DNA from: a virus
Virus record (IMG/VR): IMGVR_UViG_3300042992_000266
Coordinates: 1-33,833 of that record
Reading direction: 5' to 3' (one strand)
DNA: 33,833 nt
Shown here: piece by piece, positions 4,917 through 22,449 of the stretch
Layout: each line of letters opens with the position of its first letter
Position numbering within the stretch: position 1 is the first letter of the stretch
Position numbers and translations under genes: made by a program
Notes under the pieces: model-generated
Database searches by the model: none
What the model was told of the DNA's origin: nothing
What the model saw: the letters and a program-made list of their open reading frames with translations, nothing else

Positions 4917-5426
4917 TTATTCTTCCGCTACCTCTTGAGTTTGAATATCAACAGTAAATCCAATATTATAAGTAATAACCAATGATGTGACGGATCCGGT
5001 AGAGTTTTCAATTCCGGTTGTCCTTCCAACTGTCATCTTCGCTGGAGCGGTTCCAGCAGCGGAATATTGAAAGTATTTTTGATAAACCTGTTCGCATAAC
5101 CCGATCAATACCCTGCGAATGTCTCCAGATGAAACCTTGCCAGTCGTCCCGGATGCTGATTGAGCAGATGCCGTGAATGATGTTCCAGCAACCGCTCCGG
5201 ACGGAGCGCCAACGGATTGCCAATTAGTATCTCCAAGAGTGGTGATTGTATAGCTCAATCCGACAACAAGCCCGACAGGATCGATGTTTGCGGCTTGCCC
5301 AATTTCCGGCTTGGATAAATTTGACGAGGATACAAAATCATCGATATCAAATGAAACAACACCAGTTGATGTATCGCCATTATAATTTGATCCTAAATAT
5401 TCTGTTGGTAAGATTTTGGTTGGCAT
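4917..5426 (-). CDS. Tail protein with inserted Ig-like/TITT module
   Basis: This 169-residue protein lies between the tape measure and the hub-like gene. Residues about 55-98 form a module recognisable from many phage and environmental viral proteins: a Tyr-Thr-Ile-Thr-Thr-x-Gly-Asp-Thr-Asn-Trp stretch, then a Gly-Ala turn, a FTASA strand and a closing GTTGKV. The flanks (1-50 and 100-169) look like a single tail domain interrupted by this module. Function is probably structural at the distal tail. The leader ACAATTATG has no Shine-Dalgarno sequence. Confidence 0.6.
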   Translation of the reverse strand: MPTKILPTEYLGSNYNGDTSTGVVSFDIDDFVSSSNLSKPEIGQAANIDPVGLVVGLSYTITTLGDTNWQSVGAPSGAVAGTSFTASAQSASGTTGKVSSGDIRRVLIGLCEQVYQKYFQYSAAGTAPAKMTVGRTTGIENSTGSVTSLVITYNIGFTVDIQTQEVAEE

Positions 5427-16330: not shown

Positions 16331-17037
16331 TTAATTAAAGGATTGGCGGGTCCGGTGACATTCCAAAATAGAATAATCCCATTGCCTCTTTTCTTTTTGC
16401 ATATCTTCCATGCCTTCGCATCATAATGCGGGCAGCTAGGAAATGGCGGACGGTCATCTATGGCTTTTGAGAAAGGCATTCCAGCCTTGAAGATATTTGC
16501 CCCGGCAACATCGGAGCTTGATAGAGTCCGCCCAACTTCAACAACATTTATCGATGCGCTAGGCCAAGCAGCCCGGAGCGAGCGAGCGAGAACGCCTGAT
16601 CCTGAAGCGCACCAAACTTCATCCGGGGTTATGCCAATCGATCTAGCAGCCGATGATATGGTCGAGATTGCAGCCGGAGTATTAACGCCAAATGGAATGA
16701 GAGTCGCCCCGGTCCTAGCGCAATATTCCCTTGCTCTTGCCTGAACGACTTTCAGATATCCGACAGGCACTTGCATTATTTTAGCCCCCATTCTCTTTGC
16801 CTCTAGCGCACGATCATGCGGAACTTTGCGCTTCGCTACGAATATGGTCGCCCGCTTTCCTAGCTTGGCTGCGGTATGAGCAAGAGCGGTTTGAGCGCCT
16901 CCCTCGCAGGGACTGGCATAGACAAGCTCATCTACTCCATCGAAGAGATAGGGAAGGAACCTTGCCTTCGTGCCGCCCGGGAATAGATCATCCCGGACGA
17001 CATTGATCCCAAAGTATTCCTTAACGATTGGAGTCAT
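16327..17037 (-). CDS. PLP-dependent enzyme-like protein, fold type II (short)
   Basis: The protein has 236 residues, about two thirds of the usual length of fold-type II enzymes (D-cysteine desulfhydrase/ACC deaminase, tryptophan synthase beta type). Three family hallmarks are present: VRDDLFPGGTK (14-24) with Lys24 at the Schiff-base position, SPCEGGAQT (42-50) at the SxxxGNxxxA loop, and CASGSG (143-148) at the phosphate-binding loop. These fit PLP binding, but activity and substrate cannot be inferred. It overlaps both neighbours by four bases (ATGA), so it is co-expressed with the ParB-methyltransferase and terminase genes. Confidence 0.7.
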   Translation of the reverse strand: MTPIVKEYFGINVVRDDLFPGGTKARFLPYLFDGVDELVYASPCEGGAQTALAHTAAKLGKRATIFVAKRKVPHDRALEAKRMGAKIMQVPVGYLKVVQARAREYCARTGATLIPFGVNTPAAISTISSAARSIGITPDEVWCASGSGVLARSLRAAWPSASINVVEVGRTLSSSDVAGANIFKAGMPFSKAIDDRPPFPSCPHYDAKAWKICKKKRGNGIILFWNVTGPANPLIK

Positions 17038-18380
17038 AATTCCTCGCCCAAGTCGGAGTTATCCTGATCCGGATTGATGTCTCCGAAATCGCATTCGCCA
17101 CAGGCTTGAGCTGCTTTCTTCCCATCGCCTTTAACGAAGACCAAAACATTTTGGTGAACCTTGCCTAGCTTCCGAGATGTCGAGAACGAGTTGCCCGCCC
17201 GCATCGCAACGGATCCGCAAGTGGTAGTCAAAATCGCCTCATTATAATAATTAAGCCCGGCGGATTTGAATGCCTCCACGGTGTCGCCAACGAAGTTATA
17301 GTAATTCCCGCTCTTATCCCGAACATCACCGACCACAAAGCAAGCGAATCGGTCTTGCTTCAATCGGCTGCAAGCCTTGGCGATGATCTCGAAATACGCT
17401 TCCTTGAAATCTGCATAATCCATCGTTGAGAGATCAAGTGGATTGGAGCTATAAACCTCTAGATCGGCATAGGGAGGACAAGAGAATATAAAATCGGCGT
17501 CTACATCATGGCATATCTTATCAATGTCCCTGCTATCTGCGTTGTGCCAAACCGGGGGAAGATCAGGGCAGATTTTGTCGCCTTGAATCCTATTCGCATT
17601 GACCTGCTCTTGACGAAGATCAACACCGATATACTGCCGCCCAAGGACGGAAGCCACAATGCCGCGAACGGATCCCCCGGCGAATGGATCCAGCACCGTT
17701 CCATTGCTCGGGCTAAACCATCTATAAGCAAGTTCGCAAAGCGTTGGATCGAATATGCTCGTCCCGCTTGCCCCGGTTCGCCTTGCCAGAAGATCCGGAC
17801 GACCTCCAGCCGGAGCGTTGCGACCCTCTTCGCTATCAATGCCAAGAGCGATCCATTTCCTCTTCCTATCCTGCCACCATCCATCCCTTGCATTTAGGAC
17901 GGAAAACGGAGGAACGCCGAATTTAGATGCCAGCGATCCGGATCCACTTCCCTCGCCTTTAGAATCCCCGTCATCATCGCCTTGATCCGGGAATAGATCC
18001 TCTATCTCTTCAGCATCAAATCCGATTAGATCCATATCAAAGTCAGCCTCCCGAAGCTCGGAAATCTCAAGCCCAAGCATCTCGGAATCCCATCCAGAAT
18101 TCAGCGCCAACTTGTTGTCGGCAATGATATAAGCCCGCTTTTGAGTCTCGGTAAGATGCCCTAGCCGGATGCAGGGAACCTCGGTCATCTCCAACTTCCT
18201 TGCAGCCATAACCCTTCCATGCCCGGCAATGATGCCATCATCGGAATCGATTAGGACAGGATTGGTGAATCCAAATTCCCTGATTGAAGCTGCTACTTGA
18301 GCAACCTGTTCATCAGAATGCGTCCGGCTATTGCGAGCATATGGGATTAGCTTATCTAGTTTTACTTTTTCTATTTTCAT
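17034..18380 (-). CDS. ParB-like N-terminal domain fused to DNA methyltransferase
   Basis: The 448-residue protein is a known phage fusion type. Residues 1-95 are a ParB/Srx-like domain (KLIPYARNSRTHSDEQV, then IIAGHGR at 51-57, a nucleotide-binding loop). A charged linker (130-150) follows. The methyltransferase part has the SAM-binding DPFAGGSVRG at 231-240, IGVD at 251-254, and the catalytic loop SCPPY at 300-304. Motif I precedes motif IV, as in gamma-type DNA methylases. Ser instead of Asp/Asn in the catalytic loop leaves adenine versus N4-cytosine open. It probably modifies phage DNA. Overlaps with both neighbours are ATGA type. Confidence 0.85.
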   Translation of the reverse strand: MKIEKVKLDKLIPYARNSRTHSDEQVAQVAASIREFGFTNPVLIDSDDGIIAGHGRVMAARKLEMTEVPCIRLGHLTETQKRAYIIADNKLALNSGWDSEMLGLEISELREADFDMDLIGFDAEEIEDLFPDQGDDDGDSKGEGSGSGSLASKFGVPPFSVLNARDGWWQDRKRKWIALGIDSEEGRNAPAGGRPDLLARRTGASGTSIFDPTLCELAYRWFSPSNGTVLDPFAGGSVRGIVASVLGRQYIGVDLRQEQVNANRIQGDKICPDLPPVWHNADSRDIDKICHDVDADFIFSCPPYADLEVYSSNPLDLSTMDYADFKEAYFEIIAKACSRLKQDRFACFVVGDVRDKSGNYYNFVGDTVEAFKSAGLNYYNEAILTTTCGSVAMRAGNSFSTSRKLGKVHQNVLVFVKGDGKKAAQACGECDFGDINPDQDNSDLGEEL

Positions 18381-20796: not shown

Positions 20797-21077
20797 TATT
20801 TTCCGTCTGTCAGTTTTTGGATGGCATTGAACGCGGATGATGCAAGGCCGGGGATTGATTGCATCGGTTTAGGCTTGAGCGGGCGGATCTTGTGGGGGGG
20901 TGAATATCGCGCATCATTGCTGGCTTCATGCTTCGCTATGAGCCTTAATGCGTAAAGACTTGGGCGGATTCTTTGCACGATTTTTAGAATATGTAAAGAT
21001 TCTGCTGATATTGCAATCCGTAACAGAATAACGCATCGGGAACAAATCAGCGTTCCCGGAATTTTCCCTGATTCCAT
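20796..21077 (-). CDS. First leftward ORF, small unknown protein
   Basis: This 93-residue frame ends with TAATG coupling into the MuF-peptidase gene, which suggests real translation at least at its end. The N-terminal half is hydrophobic and basic (LICSRCVILLRIAISAESLHILKIV); the C-terminal half is basic and proline-rich (PPHKIRPLKPKPMQS) before an amphipathic end. No family is recognised. The ATG at 21077 lies next to the control region and its first codons overlap an inverted repeat (21037-21058). The only other in-frame Met (residue 72) would give 22 residues. Confidence 0.45.
   Translation of the reverse strand: MESGKIPGTLICSRCVILLRIAISAESLHILKIVQRIRPSLYALRLIAKHEASNDARYSPPHKIRPLKPKPMQSIPGLASSAFNAIQKLTDGK
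21037..21058. promoter_or_regulatory. Inverted repeat CGGGAAC/GTTCCCG (operator candidate 1)
   Basis: Perfect 7-bp arms at 21037-21043 and 21052-21058 flank an 8-base spacer. They overlap the first codons of the leftward ORF. The right half, CAGCGTTCCC, recurs at 21265-21274, which suggests a protein-binding site used twice. Confidence 0.45.
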
Positions 21078-21112
21078 AAGGGATCCAGCCCTAATAATAA
21101 TAATAATAACAT
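21047..21112 (-). CDS. Possible poly-leucine leader peptide
   Basis: An ATG at 21112 opens 21 codons, beginning with six consecutive TTA leucine codons and ending at 21047 inside the next ORF in a different frame. Codon runs of one amino acid in a leader resemble attenuation peptides, but the run is also a simple TAA microsatellite read on the other strand. It could be chance. Confidence 0.2.
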   Translation of the reverse strand: MLLLLLLGLDPLWNQGKFRER

Positions 21113-21133
21113 AATTACATATTTATTTATATA

Positions 21134-21169
21134 TATATAGAGAGAGAGAGGGATATATCTCTCTATATA
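21134..21169. repeat. A/T-rich 12-bp inverted repeat
   Basis: Arms TATATAGAGAGA (21134-21145) and TCTCTCTATATA (21158-21169) are perfectly complementary around a 12-base spacer that continues the GA run. It could form a cruciform or mark an unwinding element. The low complexity means it may also be slippage-derived. Confidence 0.6.
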
Positions 21170-21194
21170 AGTATATAGGGCTATATCTTGGAAA

Positions 21195-21211
21195 AGCGTT
21201 ACCAGCGTAAC
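21195..21211. promoter_or_regulatory. GTTAC/GTAAC inverted repeat with GTTACCAGCGT
   Basis: The sequence AGCGTTACCAGCGTAAC contains the 5-bp inverted arms GTTAC and GTAAC. The unit GTTACCAGCGT recurs in the same orientation at 21260-21270, about 60 bases away. This is a candidate binding site for a phage regulator or replication initiator. Confidence 0.4.
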
Positions 21212-21246
21212 TTTCGCTTAATCGATTTAGGATCAATGAGTTGCAC

Positions 21247-21274
21247 GGGAACATGGCTTGTTACCAGCGTTCCC
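21247..21274. promoter_or_regulatory. GGGAAC...GTTCCC inverted repeat (operator candidate 2)
   Basis: Six-base arms lie at 21247-21252 and 21269-21274 with a 16-base spacer containing GTTACCAGC. It shares GGGAAC and CAGCGTTCCC with candidate 1 at 21037-21058. The pair brackets the A/T-rich segment. Confidence 0.4.
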
Positions 21275-21311
21275 ATATGGAAGGAATCGAGGGAATCCCG
21301 GCGAAAATCAT

Positions 21312-21420
21312 CAAGAATTGATGTGCCGGATCAAGGATTCTTGGGAAATTTATCAAGAAATTTTGCCCTTGTAAGCCGCATAAACACAAGGATTCTTGAT
21401 TTTCTTGAAACTTTTTCTTG
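21312..21420. repeat. Cluster of CAAGAA/TTCTTG boxes
   Basis: Six boxes are present: CAAGAA at 21312 and 21354, and TTCTTG at 21338, 21393, 21402 and 21415. Two of them belong to exact copies of CAAGGATTCTTG (21332-21343 and 21387-21398), a near-palindrome. The density just upstream of the rightward operon suggests iterons or activator/repressor sites. Confidence 0.55.
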
Positions 21421-21445
21421 AGAATCCGAAGGAATTCTTTAGATT
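21418..21445 (+). promoter_or_regulatory. Possible sigma70-type promoter for the rightward operon
   Basis: TTGAGA (21418-21423) and TAGATT (21440-21445) are separated by 16 bases, matching 5 of 6 and 4 of 6 consensus positions. Transcription would begin near 21452, at the base of the first leader hairpin. The spacing is slightly short and the host factor is unknown, so the call is tentative. Confidence 0.35.
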
Positions 21446-21451
21446 GAATCC

Positions 21452-21490
21452 GTCAGCCGCTCATGGCTGACAGAACCAGAACCAACCAAC
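21452..21490 (+). promoter_or_regulatory. Hairpin plus C/A-rich leader, gene at 21491
   Basis: GTCAGCC (21452-21458) pairs perfectly with GGCTGAC (21465-21471) around the loop GCTCAT. A 19-base leader almost without G or T, ending AACCAACCAAC, leads to the ATG. No Shine-Dalgarno sequence is present. It is the first of three leaders with this layout. Confidence 0.55.
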
Positions 21491-21688
21491 ATGAAAATCA
21501 AATCAGCAACCAAAAGAGCAGTCGCCAAATACGGAATCCAAACCTGCATCGATGCCTACGCAATGCACGAAGACGGCAACGGAGCCAGCACGGTCTCCCA
21601 TAGCTTCTCAATCCTCAACGGCAACACGAATGCTGGAGATGCAGCGATCAACGCTGGACGAGATATCAAAGAAAACGGAGTCATCTAA
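21491..21688 (+). CDS. Early small protein 1, unknown
   Basis: The 65-residue product begins MKIKSATKRAVAKYGIQTCIDAYAMHEDGNG and is probably an N-terminal helix followed by a Gly/Asn/Ala-rich part (NGNTNAGDAAINAGRDI). Its charge is near neutral with no membrane segment. It is the first gene of the rightward operon, so it is likely made earliest and could affect host metabolism, though nothing in the sequence shows this. Translation starts after a hairpin and a G-poor leader (21452-21490). No family is recognised. Confidence 0.65.
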   Translation: MKIKSATKRAVAKYGIQTCIDAYAMHEDGNGASTVSHSFSILNGNTNAGDAAINAGRDIKENGVI

Positions 21689-21696
21689 CCAACCCC

Positions 21697-21745
21697 GCCG
21701 GGTTCCATCCCCGGCACAACCAACCAGAACCAACCAGAACCAACC
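21697..21745 (+). promoter_or_regulatory. Hairpin with TTCCATC loop plus C/A-rich leader, gene at 21746
   Basis: GCCGGG (21697-21702) pairs with CCCGGC (21710-21715) around the seven-base loop TTCCATC. It begins eight bases after the stop of the previous gene. A 30-base leader follows containing repeated ACCAACCAGA units and no Shine-Dalgarno. The loop is identical to that at 21988-21994, although the stems differ. Confidence 0.65.
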
Positions 21746-21973
21746 ATGACAACTACCAAGAATTCCATCGCATCCCTAATCCCCAACAAGGAAGTGCTGA
21801 AGATGCTCCAGTCGCTTAAAGATTCAGAATGCTTCACGATTGAGGCTGACCTAGAATCCGGGACGATTCGCGCATTGCACGGAGAAAATCAGACGAGGGT
21901 ATTCGTTGCTCTTCGCAAGGGGAAGCCGGGCGCACCTTGGATCGTCCGGATGCACTCCAAGCTATTTATCTAA
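21746..21973 (+). CDS. Early small protein 2, unknown
   Basis: The 75-residue product is MTTTKNSIASLIPNKEVLKM followed by a beta-rich part (CFTIEADLESGTIRALHGENQTRVFVALRKGKPGAPWIVRMHSKLF). The pattern of a short helix then three or four strands with basic residues would suit a small nucleic-acid- or protein-binding domain, but no family is recognised. It is preceded and followed by hairpin leaders, so each early gene may be controlled separately. Confidence 0.65.
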   Translation: MTTTKNSIASLIPNKEVLKMLQSLKDSECFTIEADLESGTIRALHGENQTRVFVALRKGKPGAPWIVRMHSKLFI

Positions 21974-21981
21974 CCAATCTC

Positions 21982-22025
21982 CCGGGGTTCCATCCCCCGG
22001 ATCTAACCGAACCAAAAATAACACC
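21982..22025 (+). promoter_or_regulatory. Second TTCCATC-loop hairpin plus A/C-rich leader, gene at 22026
   Basis: CCGGGG (21982-21987) pairs with CCCCGG (21995-22000) around TTCCATC (21988-21994), starting nine bases after a stop codon. The next 25 bases (ATCTAACCGAACCAAAAATAACACC) lead to ATG. Relative to 21697-21715 the stem bases change while pairing and loop are kept. Confidence 0.65.
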
Positions 22026-22238
22026 ATGAATGAATCAGACCTAGCTTGTTTAATCGCAGAATCGCTTTCCGAATTCACGGAAGACATCATCGCCTCCGGA
22101 CGCGAGTCCCTGCACGGATTCGATTATGACGGAGCGGAGATCGAAACCTACGAGGATGCCGGGATCCTATCCCGGGATGCCGGGCTTGTTATCCGCATCG
22201 CCGGAAAGAAATTCTATGTCACAATCAGCAGAAATTGA
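22026..22238 (+). CDS. Early small protein 3, unknown
   Basis: From ATG at 22026 the product has 70 residues. The frame is open upstream to 21906, but that part overlaps the previous gene in another frame and lacks the hairpin leader, so 22026 is preferred. The sequence is acidic at first (MNESDLACLIAESLSEFTEDIIAS) and ends in a beta-hairpin-like RDAGLVIRIAGKKFYVTISRN. It is a soluble protein with no known motif. Confidence 0.65.
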   Translation: MNESDLACLIAESLSEFTEDIIASGRESLHGFDYDGAEIETYEDAGILSRDAGLVIRIAGKKFYVTISRN

Positions 22239-22242
22239 ACCA

Positions 22243-22449
22243 ATGAATAAATACGAAACCAAAGCAGTCCAGCTCTCGCTTGCCGTCCTAGACGGGGTGG
22301 AGCGCACCACCGATGTCACGGTCTATAATATCGTAAAGTGCATAAGCGATGCCATCCGGCAGCTTCACTTCACCAGCGTCGAGCGAGAGCTTGTCGATGA
22401 TGCGGTGCTTACGGCACTTGAGCAGAAAGGAGTGGAAGTTTGTTATTAA
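22243..22449 (+). CDS. Small unknown protein
   Basis: The 68-residue product begins MNKYETKAVQLSLAVLDGVERTTDVTVYNIVKCISDAIRQL and is mostly helical, without motifs. The frame extends upstream to 22126 but that part lies over the previous gene. The start here is four bases after the previous stop with the leader AATTGAACCAATG. No Shine-Dalgarno is visible. It may form an operon with the small membrane protein that follows. Confidence 0.6.
   Translation: MNKYETKAVQLSLAVLDGVERTTDVTVYNIVKCISDAIRQLHFTSVERELVDDAVLTALEQKGVEVCY

Follow-up and report, generated by a model that had tools for sequence, protein, structure and literature searches.

T-loop-capped hairpins between stop and start codons form a putative RNA family in phages with few Shine–Dalgarno sequences

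Two hairpins that lie between consecutive genes of a phage genome are almost certainly members of a family of RNA hairpins under selection, judging from the way in which their stems and loops vary among viral contigs. The role that we favor, with a probability of roughly 0.5, is punctuation or protection of the mRNA between cistrons in hosts that make little use of Shine–Dalgarno (SD) sequences; this reading comes from the position of the hairpins. The window, i.e., the whole stretch of DNA analyzed here, comprises the 33,833 nt of IMG/VR virus record IMGVR_UViG_3300042992_000266. The terminase of the window phage shares 49% identity with its counterpart in Akkermansia phage Chambord, which makes a member of the Verrucomicrobiota the most likely host.

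Hairpins and Leaders in the Window

Three perfect hairpins precede three consecutive small genes on the plus strand, and each is followed by an A/C-rich leader without an SD sequence, just as a first-pass annotation had described. H1 (21452–21471, +), with the sequence GTCAGCC[GCTCAT]GGCTGAC, is the leader hairpin of gene 1 (21491–21688, +; 65 aa), from which it is separated by a leader of 19 nt (21472–21490, +). The other two hairpins are intercistronic and capped by a T-loop: H2 (21697–21715, +), GCCGGG[TTCCATC]CCCGGC, starts 8 nt after the stop codon of gene 1, and H3 (21982–22000, +), CCGGGG[TTCCATC]CCCCGG, is found at the same distance from the stop codon of gene 2. Their leaders, of 30 nt (21716–21745, +) and 25 nt (22001–22025, +), run up to gene 2 (21746–21973, +; 75 aa) and gene 3 (22026–22238, +; 70 aa), respectively. 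Genes 1 and 2 had no match in PHROG or Pfam. Gene 4 (22243–22449, +) has no hairpin upstream in the window. The identity of the H2 and H3 loops on differing, fully paired stems had also been seen at the first pass. In the regions of H2 and H3, folding predicted no structure other than the hairpin and left the leader open; the z-scores were −3.5, −2.5 and −1.4 for H1, H2 and H3. Two near-identical contigs carry H2 and H3 unchanged, and both have lost the outermost pair of H1.

H1 had initially been grouped with H2 and H3 as one repeated element, but this grouping does not hold. The loop and size of H1 are different, and in the relatives L061, L077 and L071 (L numbers denote contigs and loci) the hairpin ahead of the operon's first gene has a sequence and loop unrelated to those of H1 (GTCGC[CGCGA]GCGAC, GCCGC[TGATG]GCGGC). 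The operon of L116 likewise opens with a hairpin, GTTGC[ACGAC]GCAAC. H1 is presumably a leader hairpin of another class than H2 and H3, with a similar task. A promoter-like sequence, TTGAGA-16-TAGATT (21418–21445, +), would set the transcription start close to the 5′ end of H1; promoter-like sites were no more numerous than in shuffled sequence, and this one is suggestive by its position alone.

Further upstream, the divergent region between two gene blocks (21030–21300) contains GTTACC/GGTAAC-like and GGGAAC/GTTCCC repeats that are operator-like in appearance, as well as a TA/GA simple repeat, the counterpart of which in L061, L077 and L071 is a long CT repeat. Positions 17034–18380 encode a DNA methyltransferase domain fused to a ParB-like nuclease domain.

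The SD 4-mer is absent in 34 of the 41 window genes checked. Starts without SD are thus the rule throughout this genome, and the missing SD is not a mark of the hairpin genes. The SD-poor setting itself is supported by this count and by the scarcity of SD sequences in organisms including some Verrucomicrobia, namely Akkermansia muciniphila and another Verrucomicrobia strain (PMC10783764).

The Hairpin Family

The family was collected by pattern scans of viral contigs, mostly seeded with TTCCATC, followed by a context filter that left 60 elements in 40 viral loci, with 27 distinct 19-nt cores; because there are near-identical contigs among these loci, the number of independent events is smaller than 60. 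Loci that matched by chance, either within coding sequence or ahead of a G-rich leader (L007, L008, L017, L041, L046, L052, L065 and L075 among others), were left out. So were true tRNA genes or the 3′ ends of tRNAs, in which the T-arm is genuine (L203, L204, L208; L010, L018, L068). The tRNA 3′ ends, which have a CAT anticodon and real T-arms (L010 2294, +; L018 6504, −; L068 1588, −), are probably attachment sites of integrated phages.

Almost all members share the same layout: a stop codon, a gap, a GC stem of 5–9 bp with a G–C closing pair, a 7-nt loop of the form U-U/C-C-N-A-N-C, a leader and an ATG. The leader consists of G-poor A/C sequence without an SD (46% A, 37% C, 5% G). Spacing is tight between the stop codon and the hairpin (5–16 nt) and looser between the hairpin and the ATG (7–43 nt, usually 15–30 nt). 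L011 and L066 carry six copies each and L116 carries seven, counting a last copy (4973–4993) that has no close ATG; within single contigs (L011, L066, L063, L116) the stems differ and the loop motif is constant. H2 and H3 scored 29.8 and 31.2 bits with the covariance model, of which both sequences are themselves part. The element is not restricted to early genes such as those named in the first-pass annotation: in contigs with a relationship to phage P8625 it separates the terminase gene from the portal gene. In all of these settings the hairpin would be transcribed inside a polycistronic mRNA.

Terminators are typically GC-rich stems located right after stop codons. The hairpins have this feature, and one member (L076) is then followed by TTTTCTTT. 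Nevertheless, a role in termination or attenuation of transcription is very improbable: five or more Ts within 8 nt after the stem were found in just 2 of the 60 members, so that the GC hairpin with a direct U-run that defines an intrinsic terminator is lacking, and a terminator scan flagged none of H1, H2 and H3 on the coding strand. Moreover, the next genes start tens of bases downstream, with no recognized promoter. The sequences do not suggest processing by RNase P either, as the stems are 5–9 bp long instead of about 12 and there is no constant RCCA at the 3′ side.

Selection on Stem and Loop

Covariation was measured in an alignment (A3) of 28 distinct cores, made up of the 27 above and one from L066 (6984), which had earlier been set aside for an SD-like 4-mer in its leader. 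Paired cells amounted to 96.4%, compared to 68.1% in shuffles, and double-sided changes to 44 cells, compared to 15.5. Five of the six pairs changed on both sides; the closing G–C pair is invariant by the search rule, and the pair adjacent to it varies once. The covariation score was 0.674, and at most 0.156 when the partners were slid, a control that preserves the relatedness among cores, which the shuffles ignore. A first set of 15 cores also gave strong covariation. The first-pass annotation had read the hairpins as selected RNA structure and had named conservation and covariation in related phages beforehand as the test; this reading is borne out by the covariation, by the repetition across phages and by the fixed orientation of the hairpins to the genes.

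TTCCATC was fixed by the seeds, and conservation of the loop was therefore tested without the seed. When loops of 3–10 nt with any closing pair were allowed in the G-poor gaps between stop codon and ATG of the carrier contigs, 42 of the 43 loops of 7 nt were T-loops. The non-seed loops were TTCGATC, TTCAATC, TTCTATC, TTCGACC, TTCAACC and TCCAATC, together with TTCCACC and TCCAACC. Variation is found mainly at T-loop positions 57 and 59, while U54, C56 and A58 are kept. Since members carry the first six of these loops, the CAT that the H1 loop had been seen to share has no meaning for the family. The T-loop motif was present on 67 hairpins in the 384,610 bp of carrier loci, and 56 of these had the context of stop codon, G-poor leader and ATG. 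The same loci yielded four hairpins with a reversed loop, three with a complemented loop and two with a C-closed loop, none of them in context; these loci are mostly TTCCATC-seeded, and the loop-free scans therefore weigh more than the loop-control counts. No T-loop hairpin in the reverse-complement orientation was found in the stop/leader/ATG context of the carrier loci.

A possible second intercistronic class was seen, with a 9-nt loop, CATCCTACA or CATCTCACA, on differing 5-bp GC stems between stop codon and ATG (L072 at about 3364, −; L212 at about 5441, −; L086 at about 3782, +).

The loop resembles that of a tRNA T-arm. The TruB/Pus4 T-arm-type loop GUUCNANNC on a stem of at least 5 bp is present in 58 of the 60 elements, including H2 and H3, and some copies in L116 have exactly 5 bp. 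A T-arm analogue of 17 nt with 53-GUUYRANYC-61 is acceptable to TruB, and the U54 methyltransferases depend on a canonical T-loop of 7 nt with a stem of 5 bp (PMC7912444). A T-arm-binding protein, for instance TruB, one of the U54 methyltransferases or a processing factor from phage or host, might thus modify or bind the mRNA between cistrons, or help to process it. We regard this as a minority possibility. Position 57 is a purine in the consensus of tRNAs but a C in TTCCATC, the most frequent loop of the family; the strict consensus GUUYRANYC is matched by only 16 of the 60 elements and by neither H2 nor H3, both of which have C57. U55 is missing in two members, and a stable stem or the fold of the T-loop could by itself account for the conservation. 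No tRNA cloverleaf was detected by ARAGORN in the window or in L011, L066, L116, L061, L077, L195 or L205.

Distribution among Phages

The carriers belong to several phage lineages. Many are related to Akkermansia phages (L092, L069, L072, L116 and others have protein relatives there) or to phage P8625 of Puniceicoccales (L040, L045, L047, L089, L097 and others). L084 has an unrelated terminase of PHROG 15, and the L011 contig could not be placed among the phage lineages. The element is absent from the isolated phages Chambord, Chantilly and DTMo-2021a of Akkermansia and from P8625; phages of these hosts therefore do not require the hairpin. When cultured phages and plasmids were searched with the element by BLAST, all matches were partial and at chance level. 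The 6-nt-loop pattern CCGGGGTTCCATCCCCGG had 17 matches in genome contigs, which were scattered over taxa, lacked the layout and were uninformative about hosts.

Scanning with the stem fixed and the loop left free uncovered the layout of stop codon, CAACCC, hairpin, leader and ATG in many other phages, with UUCG, GNRA or other caps. An SD was present in the leaders of 26 of the 37 hairpins with caps other than the T-loop, whereas all six T-loop caps had leaders without SD (Fisher p 0.002, relatedness among contigs not being corrected for). The layout is therefore a general one, with the T-loop cap as the version of the SD-poor group. In many phage contigs, including L101, L129, L155, L156, L162, L167, L173 and L184, the UUCG-capped GCCGGGGC[TTCG]GCCCCGGC recurs in this layout, preceded by CAACCC and followed by an SD and ATG.

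The restriction of T-loop caps to leaders without SD, together with the usual distance to the ATG, might suggest that SD-less translation of the downstream gene begins with a ribosome, or a translation factor, brought in or positioned by the hairpin. However, most SD-less genes of the window phage lack such a hairpin, the spacing is loose toward the ATG and tight toward the upstream stop codon, and the last copy in L116 has no ATG close by. We consider such a direct role in translation to be unlikely.

Gene Exchange at the Hairpins

Comparison of contigs indicates that related phages exchange genes at the hairpins. In six contig pairs, homology is one-sided and ends at the module, at about −14 to −4 or +35 to +45 relative to the stem. 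Thus, L053 and L057 are 98.5% identical up to +45 and unrelated beyond, L061 and L077 are 92.5% identical up to +35, and L068 and L072 are 96% identical up to +38. On the other side, identity is 96% from −4 onward for L044 and L048, 95.8% from −12 for L044 and L057, and 87% from −12 for L059 and L077. The region from the operon start to the exonuclease gene differs among the window, L061, L077 and L071, with collinear flanking genes. In L071, the homologue of window gene 4 is preceded by the hairpin AGCCGGG[TTCCATC]CCCGGCT, whereas the window has none. L077 has in this cassette region an ORF (3420–2125, −) that by eye resembles a DNA cytosine methyltransferase; the window has small unknown genes there.

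The six homology ends and the hairpin before the gene 4 homologue in L071 would be expected if the hairpin and leader were kept at the DNA level, as a short homology or a folded single-stranded site that marks the boundary of a cassette. Breakpoints at gene borders are, however, common in phages without any such element, and simple homology does not need compensatory changes. The hairpin is always oriented with the genes and its loop is conserved, which points to an RNA rather than a DNA role. Nor are there attC-like inverted boxes at the stem: the inversely repeated RYYYAAC/GTTRRRY boxes of an integron attC site are lacking at H2 and H3, because both flanks are A/C-rich on the same strand. 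Retention as a site of exchange is accordingly a doubtful explanation, if a less remote one than ribosome recruitment.

Proposed Role

The position right after the stop codon, the stable cap, the open leader and the parallels with UUCG and GNRA caps lead us to favor punctuation or protection of the mRNA. The hairpin would separate one cistron from the next, blocking run-through both of terminating or drifting ribosomes and of exonucleases, while the SD-less A/C leader of the next gene would stay unpaired so that ribosomes can load there. As a cap, the T-loop would be compact and stable, the counterpart of the UUCG or GNRA tetraloops in other phages, and the unrelated leader hairpin of the first operon gene would have a similar purpose. 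It is conceivable, with considerably lower probability, that the hairpins imitate the T-arm of tRNA and are read by T-arm-binding enzymes of the host as cistron punctuation in bacteria with little SD use. Recombination ranks below both of these readings, ribosome recruitment lower again, and termination last.

The hairpins offer a compact, testable RNA element for bacteria and phages whose expression signals are little known and whose starts mostly lack SD. In uncultivated phages, gene cassettes and exchange sites can also be located by means of the hairpin-plus-leader module. If the T-arm likeness is functional, the family would be a natural class of viral mRNA targets for tRNA modification enzymes.

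Comparison with Known Systems

We could find no description of this hairpin family. The first-pass annotation had stated the same, and Rfam concurs, with no family above the gathering score in the window and only chance-level matches at permissive thresholds in L066, L116 and L011; the layout, however, does have described analogues.

The T4-type phages reportedly possess mobile regulatory cassettes that consist of a stem-loop at the gene border and an early promoter, with genes being shuffled around them. These cassettes are attributed to Arbiol et al. 2010 in PMC4177764. The likeness lies in the stem-loop at gene borders amid gene shuffling; the hairpins described here belong to another loop class and have no recognized promoter between cistrons. 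There is no promoter-like site before genes 2 and 3, as judged by the sigma-70 consensus only, which speaks against membership.

In the cluster K mycobacteriophages, the start-associated sequences (SAS) are 13 bp long and contain an SD-like core, and the extended inverted repeats (ESAS) are imperfect, measure 17 bp and have a variable spacer (PMC3203893). As in our phages, a repeated inverted-repeat element stands before the translation starts of some non-structural genes, with a suspected role in initiation, but SAS/ESAS lacks a T-loop, has the SD-like core and occurs in other hosts (PMC3203893). The 13-bp GGGATAGGAGCCC is not found at the start codons here, where the leaders are G-poor A/C sequence.

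The tRNA T-arm and the mRNA sites of TruB, Pus4 and U54 methyltransferases share with the hairpins a G–C-closed 7-nt loop, U54, C56, A58 and a stem of at least 5 bp (PMC7912444, PMC9916637). The phage hairpins differ in being located outside tRNA, between phage genes, with stems of up to 9 bp and usually C at position 57. Finally, the UUCG- and GNRA-capped intercistronic hairpins of other phage contigs have the same layout of stop codon, CAACCC, GC stem, leader and ATG, and in part even the same stem; they differ from the T-loop family in their tetraloop cap and in the SD that most of their leaders contain.
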